Part shown: positions 30,670-32,843 of the stretch, one piece after another
How positions within the stretch are numbered: the first letter of the stretch is position 1
Layout of the letters: each line of letters begins with the position of its first letter
Source: Sulfurimonas sp.
Lineage (GTDB): Bacteria; Campylobacterota; Campylobacteria; Campylobacterales; Sulfurimonadaceae
Length of the DNA: 32,843 bases
Reading direction: 5' to 3'
Assembly (NCBI GenBank): GCA_027063745.1
Contig: JAMORG010000061.1
Location: 1-32,843 of the forward strand
Position numbers and translations under genes: made by a program
Notes under the pieces: generated by a model
What the model saw: only the letters and a program-made list of their open reading frames with translations
The model's database searches: none
What the model was told of the DNA's origin: nothing

Positions 30670-31140
30670 ATGAAAGATATTACGAGAGATTTATATTTTG
30701 TAAGAGAATATACACTCGATACAATTCAAAATACAGAGATTAAAAAGAGTACAATAGATGGTTTTGGTTTATTCGCGACTCAAATAATTCAAACAAATAC
30801 TATACTGTGTATTTTAGATGGACAAGTGATGAGTGCTAAAACATATGAAAATTTAGTTGAAAAACTTTCCAATAAAGTTGGTGCTTTTAAAAACTATTTC
30901 TTTATGGAGTGTAATAAATTAAATATTGATACGTACCTTGTGCGTCCCTACCGTACAAAATATAGTTATATCAATCACTCTTTCACTCCAAATACCGTCA
31001 TTAGGGAGTTTCCTTTACGGCTGGTTTCATTGAAAAATATAAAAAAAGGTGAAGAACTTACTTTGGATTATACACAAGAGGAATTAAGTAATGAGTATCT
31101 CTCTTTGAAAAGTAAAGGTTTTTTAAAACGAAATGATTGA
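30670..31140 (+). CDS. SET-domain protein, putative lysine methyltransferase
   Basis: A 156-residue protein that is almost only a SET domain, the fold of AdoMet-dependent protein lysine methyltransferases. The motifs are GFGLFA at 31-36, INHSFTPNT at 101-109 (the NHSCxPN box with F for C) and IKKGEELTLDY at 124-134. No post-SET cysteine cluster is present; the protein ends 22 residues after the DY. The substrate is unknown. It shares an 8-base overlap with the next gene, which suggests that this membrane protein or something near it is linked to its function (inference). This pair looks more AT-rich than the neighbouring housekeeping genes, a possible sign of transfer. Confidence 0.88.
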   Translation: MKDITRDLYFVREYTLDTIQNTEIKKSTIDGFGLFATQIIQTNTILCILDGQVMSAKTYENLVEKLSNKVGAFKNYFFMECNKLNIDTYLVRPYRTKYSYINHSFTPNTVIREFPLRLVSLKNIKKGEELTLDYTQEELSNEYLSLKSKGFLKRND

Positions 31141-32464
31141 TATCACTTTTTATTGTATACAGCCTATAGAAATAGATGAACATATCTATCAAGAGTTGCT
31201 GATTACAGATTATAATCTGGAAAAAATAAAAGAGTACACTCACACTGATTTTAACTCTTTATGGTTGCAGGAATTTAGTTCAAAAAACAGAGTATATGCA
31301 AACTTTTTTTCTTTAAAAGAGAAAGAAAAGCTATCGAGTGAACTCTTGAGAAAAGATTTGCATCCTTTTGGCGGCAACATACAGATAGAACTTTCAAAGT
31401 TTTTTATAGCTCAAGAAAGTAGGTATGAGTTGTTATTTGACTTGAAAATGCTTTTTTTCTTTCTCTCCTTTGAGATACACTTTAAGATACCAAAAGAAAA
31501 AGTAGACTTGATATTGAAATGTCAAGAAGAAAACTTATATACATATATTAGAAGCTTATTGGTTAAAGAGAATGATGAAGACAAGTTGGCAGTATGGGTA
31601 GATAATGTTCGAAGAAAATCTACAGAGTTAATAGTTGCATTTTCTAATAATGTATTAAACTATAAACTTGAGAATAACTATATAAGGATTAAAAACAACA
31701 CTGGTAATATTACAGCTATTATTTATGATAAAGAGTTTGAGAGTCGTAAAGAACAATGGAAATGCTGTAATGAAAGCGCAGAACGCTTAGAGGTTCACAG
31801 TGAACCTGTTTATGAAAATGAATATGTAAGCTATATGTTTTATGGACGTTTTCATACTATACTGCTAGCAAGAGAGAAAGAGAAGCAGCGATATGTTCCA
31901 GTACAGTTTCATATGCAGTATATGTGGTTTATTATAGACTTTTTCAACGCAATGCTTGATAGTTTAAATATTCAAGTGATAGAGAGAAAAAATAAAAAAC
32001 TAGAAAAGGTATCAGATATTATATATGAAGTCATTAATAAAGTACAGTTGCTAAATATACATAATGAAAGATTTTCAAGTGCTATTGAAATTGATAATAC
32101 TCTTATTTACAAAAAGATAGAATCTAAGTGGAATATTTTAATAAACCTCCAGACATTAAAAGACTATATTCTTATTTTTAAAGATTATTTAGAACGTCTT
32201 TTTTCAAATAAAATGGCAATCGTTCAACGAAAACAAAATAAAATTTTATTTGCTATCTCTTTTTTACAGATAGCTGCTTTGATTAGTGTTTGGAATGACT
32301 ATCTTTCATTGCTTGATGAAAGCTCTATAAAAAATGTGGATGAAATTTTGTTCTTATTTTTTGGTGAGCAGGAAAATCTTGTAAAGTTTAATGAATTCAT
32401 TCCTTTGGTACTGCTTCTATTTACGATAGTCGCTTTAATATATTTGGTAATAAAGAAAAAGTAA
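31133..32464 (+). CDS. Unrecognised protein with two C-terminal membrane segments
   Basis: A 443-residue protein that I cannot assign to a named family. Residues 1-365 are soluble-looking and probably cytoplasmic, with a lysine/glutamate-rich helix around 284-305 and a long helix at about 330-370. Two hydrophobic segments follow, at 371-388 and 422-440, and the chain ends in a basic tail (IKKK). A large N-terminal domain, helical hairpin and C-terminal membrane pair recall DUF155/RMD1-type or CorA-like architectures, but I see no diagnostic motif such as GMN. The ATG overlaps the end of the SET gene by eight bases, with only a distant AAAGG, so translation is likely coupled. Base composition is AT-rich. 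Confidence 0.78.
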   Translation: MIDITFYCIQPIEIDEHIYQELLITDYNLEKIKEYTHTDFNSLWLQEFSSKNRVYANFFSLKEKEKLSSELLRKDLHPFGGNIQIELSKFFIAQESRYELLFDLKMLFFFLSFEIHFKIPKEKVDLILKCQEENLYTYIRSLLVKENDEDKLAVWVDNVRRKSTELIVAFSNNVLNYKLENNYIRIKNNTGNITAIIYDKEFESRKEQWKCCNESAERLEVHSEPVYENEYVSYMFYGRFHTILLAREKEKQRYVPVQFHMQYMWFIIDFFNAMLDSLNIQVIERKNKKLEKVSDIIYEVINKVQLLNIHNERFSSAIEIDNTLIYKKIESKWNILINLQTLKDYILIFKDYLERLFSNKMAIVQRKQNKILFAISFLQIAALISVWNDYLSLLDESSIKNVDEILFLFFGEQENLVKFNEFIPLVLLLFTIVALIYLVIKKK

Positions 32465-32468
32465 CCGT

Positions 32469-32843
32469 ATGTACACTTTTAATAAAGCTGCCTCGCGTGA
32501 GCAGACAAACGCAGAAAAATATACTTTAAGAAAAGAGCTCTTTGGTACGGAAGATCTGCTACCTGCGTGGGTTGCCGACATGGACATAGAGACACCTTCC
32601 TTTGTACTTGAAGCTGTAAGAAAACGCTTAGAGCATCCCATTATAGGTTATGAGGAGGTGTCTGCATCTGCATTTGAAGCGCAAATTGCGTGGATGCAGA
32701 GGCAGCATGGAGTAGCGTTTGCACTTGATGATATCTTCTATTCACACTCTGTAGTTGCCTCAATGGCTGTGGCTATTGAAGCCTTTACTCAAGAGGGTGA
32801 GGGGGTGATAGTGCAAACTCCGGTATATTCACCTTTTTTTTAT
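32469..32843 (+). CDS. PatB/MalY-type aminotransferase (putative cystathionine beta-lyase), 3' end cut
   Basis: The first 125 residues of a fold-type I PLP enzyme. LLPAWVADMDIETPSFVLEAV at about 30-50 is the PatB/MalY signature, followed by the GYE loop and SHSVVASMAVAIEAFTQEG, the start of the cofactor domain. Characterised relatives cleave cystathionine or related C-S bonds; the exact substrate is open. The PLP lysine lies beyond the window. ATG 32469 is four bases after the preceding stop, without a clear ribosome binding site, so it may be read from the SET-operon transcript. Confidence 0.9.
   Translation, partial: MYTFNKAASREQTNAEKYTLRKELFGTEDLLPAWVADMDIETPSFVLEAVRKRLEHPIIGYEEVSASAFEAQIAWMQRQHGVAFALDDIFYSHSVVASMAVAIEAFTQEGEGVIVQTPVYSPFFY

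Follow-up and report, generated by a model that had tools for sequence, protein, structure and literature searches.

A bacterial SET methyltransferase gene paired with the gene of a predicted CorA-fold membrane protein

To our knowledge, little is known about what SET methyltransferases modify in bacteria. Bacterial enzymes of this kind have so far been discussed mostly as modifiers of eukaryotic chromatin (PMC3980110). A Sulfurimonas contig of 32,843 nucleotides, analysed over its entire length and referred to here as the window, carries a SET gene that overlaps a gene for a membrane protein, and raises the question of whether the two form a functional unit and, if so, what the enzyme does to its neighbor. 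Judged by its gene content and its relatives, the host is a member of the Campylobacterota. A first-pass annotation had proposed an undescribed two-gene system at this site. The parts of the locus that concern the enzyme and the junction are as follows.

30670..31140, + strand: SET-domain protein lysine methyltransferase, 156 aa (Pfam SET, motifs and PDB profile matches)
30760-30768, + strand: GFG motif of the SET protein, codons 31-33, conserved in six orthologues
30973-30978, + strand: Asn-His of the SET protein, codons 102-103, conserved in six orthologues
31066-31071, + strand: catalytic-type Asp-Tyr of the SET protein, codons 133-134, conserved in six orthologues
31133..31140, + strand: two-gene overlap, 8 nt, from ORF coordinates (4 to 20 nt in orthologous pairs)

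Both open reading frames (30670-31140 and 31133-32464) are intact and lie, overlapping, where the first-pass annotation had placed them. The Pfam SET profile (PF00856) matches the 156-aa protein with an E-value of 1.8e-14 and 54.5 bits (cut-off 22.4) along profile positions 1-104 of 105. The motifs GFG, YINHSxxPN and ELTLDY are present in the alignment of all six orthologues, and the general cofactor and catalytic motifs of SET enzymes (GxG, NHxxxPN and ExxxDY) are intact in each of them. A profile search of the PDB with the family returned SET proteins, mostly histone lysine methyltransferases. Judging from these sequence features the enzyme is expected to be active, and it forms a separate SET subfamily recognisable by the signatures LDGQxM and RTKYxxINHS. 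Assignment to the Legionella AnkI/LegAS4 family (NF043024) was rejected, as the match reached 31.3 bits against a cut-off of 550 and the common SET core alone aligns.

The pair stands out from its surroundings by composition, with a G+C content of 0.284 against 0.389 for the rest of the window and one in 621 sliding windows of the same size as low, which bears out the AT-richness remarked on earlier. Its position between housekeeping genes was also correctly described. On the opposite strand, upstream of the pair, pgeF comes first, followed by dxs and by genes of the flagellum; on the 3' side, 4 nt after the membrane-protein stop, begins a gene for a PatB-type C-S lyase (window 32462-32843), which is truncated where the contig ends. 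Given this 4-nt gap, the lyase gene may be co-transcribed with the pair. Promoter and terminator scans performed no better than on shuffled sequence and therefore no transcription unit is claimed.

Whether the two genes belong together can be judged from other genomes. The membrane protein was found in 2 of 397 genomes of the phylum, the Sulfurimonas genome itself counted, the other being that of Campylobacter concisus (34% identical), in which its gene lies directly 3' of a SET gene. Neither SET nor membrane-protein relatives were detected in 59 other near genomes, including 36 of the same genus (0/36), and among 247 genomes of the class to which an Izimaplasma genome belongs the membrane protein occurs in one, the Izimaplasma genome itself. 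A scan of 84,980 species genomes with two short peptide patterns recovered six other membrane-protein loci, five of them distinct; because of this reliance on two patterns, more members of the pair surely exist. The loci found are listed below.

L005, Epsilonproteobacteria MAG: SET immediately upstream, 20-nt overlap
L006, Arcobacter MAG: SET immediately upstream, 20-nt overlap
L007 and L008, two near-identical Mollicutes MAGs: SET immediately upstream, overlap of 20 nt in L007
L009, Campylobacter concisus, identical to the phylum-survey genome (G083): SET immediately upstream, 4-nt overlap
L010, Izimaplasma MAG: SET immediately upstream, 20-nt overlap

The SET gene is thus immediately 5' of, and overlaps, the membrane-protein gene at each of the six other loci (five distinct). 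Since the same gene order and overlap recur in other lineages, the pair is not a chance arrangement, and on this point the proposal of a two-gene system is upheld. The pairwise identities of the SET and membrane proteins correlate with r 0.98 (15 comparisons among six pairs), a value raised by the close L005-L006 pair. The pair was found in two phyla and, with the exception of two Arcobacter-like genomes that have a common site, its surroundings differ from lineage to lineage. The constant upstream position of SET in these differing surroundings makes a co-inherited, horizontally moved module well supported as far as the pairing is concerned. With toxin-antitoxin systems the pair has in common that its two genes are neighbors, are inherited together and have spread horizontally in a patchy manner.

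The surveyed pairs sit among ordinary or housekeeping genes and not in defence islands, and no transposase or integrase was noticed adjoining them. The first-pass annotation had asked whether the two families co-occur in other genomes and in defence or mobile islands; they do co-occur, and a link to such islands is borne out only in part, mobile DNA being represented by the solitary SET genes on plasmids described below. In four of the six pairs the G+C content is well under that of the neighboring DNA, and in the Mollicutes (L007) and Izimaplasma (L010) cases it roughly equals it. The C. concisus pair lies in an amino-acid transporter operon, where it starts 3 nt past the homology on the permease side. 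Both flanks of this site are preserved in three related strains, and partly in a fourth, but what lies there in those strains is another stretch, which resembles a tandem binding-protein gene. This operon site (L004:7482-11586, L115-L118) is strain-variable.

The second gene encodes a protein whose main features are given here.

31133..32464, + strand: 443-aa membrane protein, predicted CorA-like fold (AlphaFold2, Foldseek and an orthologue model)
32039..32041, + strand: Lys303 codon, candidate methylation site, invariant in all six distinct orthologues
32180..32182, + strand: Lys350 codon (stalk-helix motif FKDYL), candidate methylation site, invariant in all six distinct orthologues
32237..32299, + strand: TM1, about residues 369-389 (hydropathy, alignment and comparison with the CorA proteins of relatives)
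32375..32461, + strand: TM2, about residues 415-443 (hydropathy; helix 413-442 in the model)

The C-terminal two-helix membrane part that had been read from the sequence is confirmed by hydropathy, which gives two segments in all six distinct members. The predicted order of elements is an N-terminal alpha/beta domain, a long stalk helix that continues into TM1, a loop and a C-terminal TM2. Lys303 and Lys350 are the sole invariant lysines among the six distinct orthologues and both lie on predicted cytoplasmic helices. The end of TM1 carries a conserved SVWNDYL, GVWSSYL or similar sequence at the position of the CorA GMN, and the GxN signature is absent.

At the level of sequence the label "unrecognised" still applies to this protein: it stays below every Pfam and NCBIfam threshold, PADLOC offers no good match for it, and its profile gave nothing convincing when used to search PDB sequences. 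Pfam CorA (PF01544) does not match the window protein, and the best of the six members scores 12.2 bits against a cut-off of 27; the sole PADLOC match, CorA-like, is weak and confined to one of the six members (12.5 bits, E 0.029). Sub-cut-off matches to the Pfam families AXE1, DASH_Duo1 and KorB, each in a single member and none common to the group, were discarded. The label no longer fits the predicted fold, which is CorA-like.

The structure prediction comprised two AlphaFold models, of monomers and built from the same six sequences. In the AlphaFold2 model of the window protein (pLDDT 78.4, pTM 0.74) stalk and TM1 form one continuous helix of 59 residues (335-393), followed by the loop and TM2. 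In a Foldseek comparison with the PDB, CorA proteins fill the first 11 rows (best E 9e-4, probability 0.99), and in VIA-align every one of the first 13 matches is to CorA or MRS2 (Z up to 7.0, rmsd 13 A), that to Thermotoga maritima CorA being whole-length. With the Mollicutes orthologue model Foldseek places CorA, CmaX or ZntB in each of its first 25 rows (best E 3e-4), and VIA-align reaches Z 12.0 with Campylobacter jejuni CorA (112 residues, rmsd 2.3), in a list in which an unrelated designed helical protein reaches Z 10.8. As TM-scores are low (0.2-0.3), the CorA match is one of arrangement. A structure search of BFVD gave no match under E 0.1. When the membrane-protein profile was compared with 28 CorA proteins of relatives, picked for carrying GxN, the stalk-to-TM1 region aligned in register (P 0.0018; 0.24-0.63 for seven controls).

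The absence of GMN, the presence of a separate canonical GMN-type CorA elsewhere in the genome of the window and the CorA-like models lead us to call the protein, on the strength of these models, CorA-fold and not a CorA transporter. A match to a well-characterised transporter, which would have spoken against a new system, was not obtained: no curated family threshold is reached and, the CorA-like fold being without the GxN signature, the identification with a well-known transporter was rejected.

The reading that we prefer, with a probability of about 0.4, is that the membrane protein is a CorA-fold effector which the SET partner would hold in check through lysine methylation. It draws support from the strict pairing, the conserved overlap, the correlated identities (r 0.98) and the patchy spread over two phyla; from the CorA-like fold in two models, the stalk-TM1 profile match and the separate canonical CorA in the genome; and from the solitary plasmid SETs and the precedent of the CRISPR CorA effector (PMC10600005). 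Against it count the housekeeping surroundings, the low TM-scores, the small number of solitary SETs and the failure of the searches of phages, viral contigs and plasmids to turn up a relative of the membrane protein. A phage or viral origin was set aside, no such relative having been found in IMG/VR (three queries) or in phage records (window protein as query). A gene overlap and a patchy distribution are compatible with a metabolic or stress module as well.

The first alternative, which we consider rather unlikely, is a regulated ion transporter, in which the CorA-like protein would move a cation and the SET enzyme tune it by methylation, with neither toxicity nor a role in defence. The predicted fold and the location of the pair amid ordinary genes agree with this, and strict pairing suits any couple of substrate and modifier. 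Nevertheless, the GxN selectivity motif is absent, a canonical CorA is already present in the same genome, and a very patchy spread accompanied by solitary plasmid SETs would be unusual for a housekeeping transporter.

The solitary SET genes bear on a further alternative. Three have been found on plasmids, of which one is broken and one is about 32% identical. One (L034:6105-6557) is on the 119,793-bp plasmid pICON of C. concisus and shares 76% identity with the paired SET found on the chromosome of a second strain of this species; neither the plasmid stretch nor the rest of that plasmid-bearing genome has a membrane partner, and an integrase-like gene follows directly on the other strand. The SET gene of the C. 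jejuni SCJK2 plasmid (L041:5968-6363; 48% identical) has a frame change near the C-terminus before the last motif and for this reason counts as a relic only. This plasmid also carries conjugation genes and, downstream of SET, a long series of genes for leucine-rich repeat proteins of the BspA type. The third (L042:5959-6420; 32% identical) is on an Azonexus hydrophilus plasmid, with an IS200/IS605 transposase on one side and a DNA-ligase-like ORF on the other. SET genes are also present on viral contigs of IMG/VR (L015-L033), as distant relatives with identities of about 30-38% in most cases. SET thus occurs without the membrane protein and the converse was never seen among the loci found, an asymmetry that, small as the numbers are, one would expect if SET were the protective half.

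The same genes can be taken to mean that SETs of this branch, being able to stand alone on plasmids, need not depend on the membrane protein. The enzyme would then target another cell component or the protein of an invader, and the membrane protein would serve as its anchor, sensor or export partner. We regard this as unlikely, as the membrane protein was never without SET in the loci found and has two invariant lysines, as expected of a substrate, though of structure too.

Very improbable, finally, is a second-messenger-gated effector akin to CRISPR CorA, with the SET fold repurposed for a SAM-derived signal: there is a CRISPR CorA effector that has SAM-AMP as its ligand and depends on a partner enzyme (PMC10600005), and CorA-like is the sole PADLOC match, but that match is weak, cas10 or a cyclase was not noticed beside the pairs in ORFs read by eye, and the SET active-site motifs are intact.

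For the methylation-silenced effector a sequence of events can be proposed. The membrane protein would assemble as a CorA-like oligomeric channel or membrane-permeabilising effector, and the SET enzyme would be made first and in step with it through translational coupling. The enzyme would methylate the membrane protein and thereby keep it safe, the most likely sites being Lys303, Lys350 or both, on the cytoplasmic helices. Should the methylase be lost or blocked, or a signal bind the conserved cytoplasmic part, the channel would open and the cell would be harmed or halted. The pair would in this way act as a toxin-antitoxin-like or abortive-defence unit, and the solitary plasmid SETs may serve to keep a resident pair silent or to give protection when it is lost. 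Methylation of the membrane protein by SET, toxicity and the defence role are what we infer from the arrangement. The more specific version, in which SET methylation silences a CorA-fold toxin as part of a post-translational toxin-antitoxin or abortive-defence system and plasmid SETs provide anti-addiction or counter-defence, is to be held as doubtful.

The pair points to a likely partner, and to two candidate lysines in it, for a bacterial SET methyltransferase. If the proposal is true, protein lysine methylation joins the bacterial means of controlling membrane toxins and CorA-fold effectors extend beyond CRISPR. In the open-licence papers searched, neither a SET methyltransferase antitoxin nor a description of a pair of this kind was found; the component folds are known, and their SET plus CorA-like combination appears undescribed there.

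Several known systems invite comparison. With the CorA, ZntB and MRS2 (2-TM-GxN) channels the membrane protein has in common the order of elements, the best fold matches and a weak in-register similarity from stalk to TM1, whereas it is without GxN, falls under the Pfam CorA cut-off, has a longer stretch between TM1 and TM2 and has a SET neighbor at every locus. The enzyme resembles the minimal SET methyltransferases (viral vSET and bacterial SETs; PMC3980110) in its full SET domain and intact cofactor and catalytic motifs, and differs from them in its own LDGQxM / RTKYxxINHS subfamily. The CRISPR CorA that works with NrN or a SAM-AMP lyase is alike in its large cytoplasmic domain, its CorA-like C-terminal two-helix part and its enzyme partner; the type III-B effector of Bacteroides fragilis is toxic alone and less so with NrN, its partner enzyme lessening the toxicity (PMC10600005). 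The pair differs from it in having a SET methyltransferase as partner, and sequence similarity is at noise level; the ORFs around the pairs, read by eye, are ordinary genes and SET, with no cas genes noticed. Type VII toxin-antitoxin systems silence the toxin by enzymatic modification. The pair is like them in its two overlapping genes, one for an enzyme and one for a putative membrane toxin, in its patchy spread and in the solitary plasmid copies of the would-be antitoxin.
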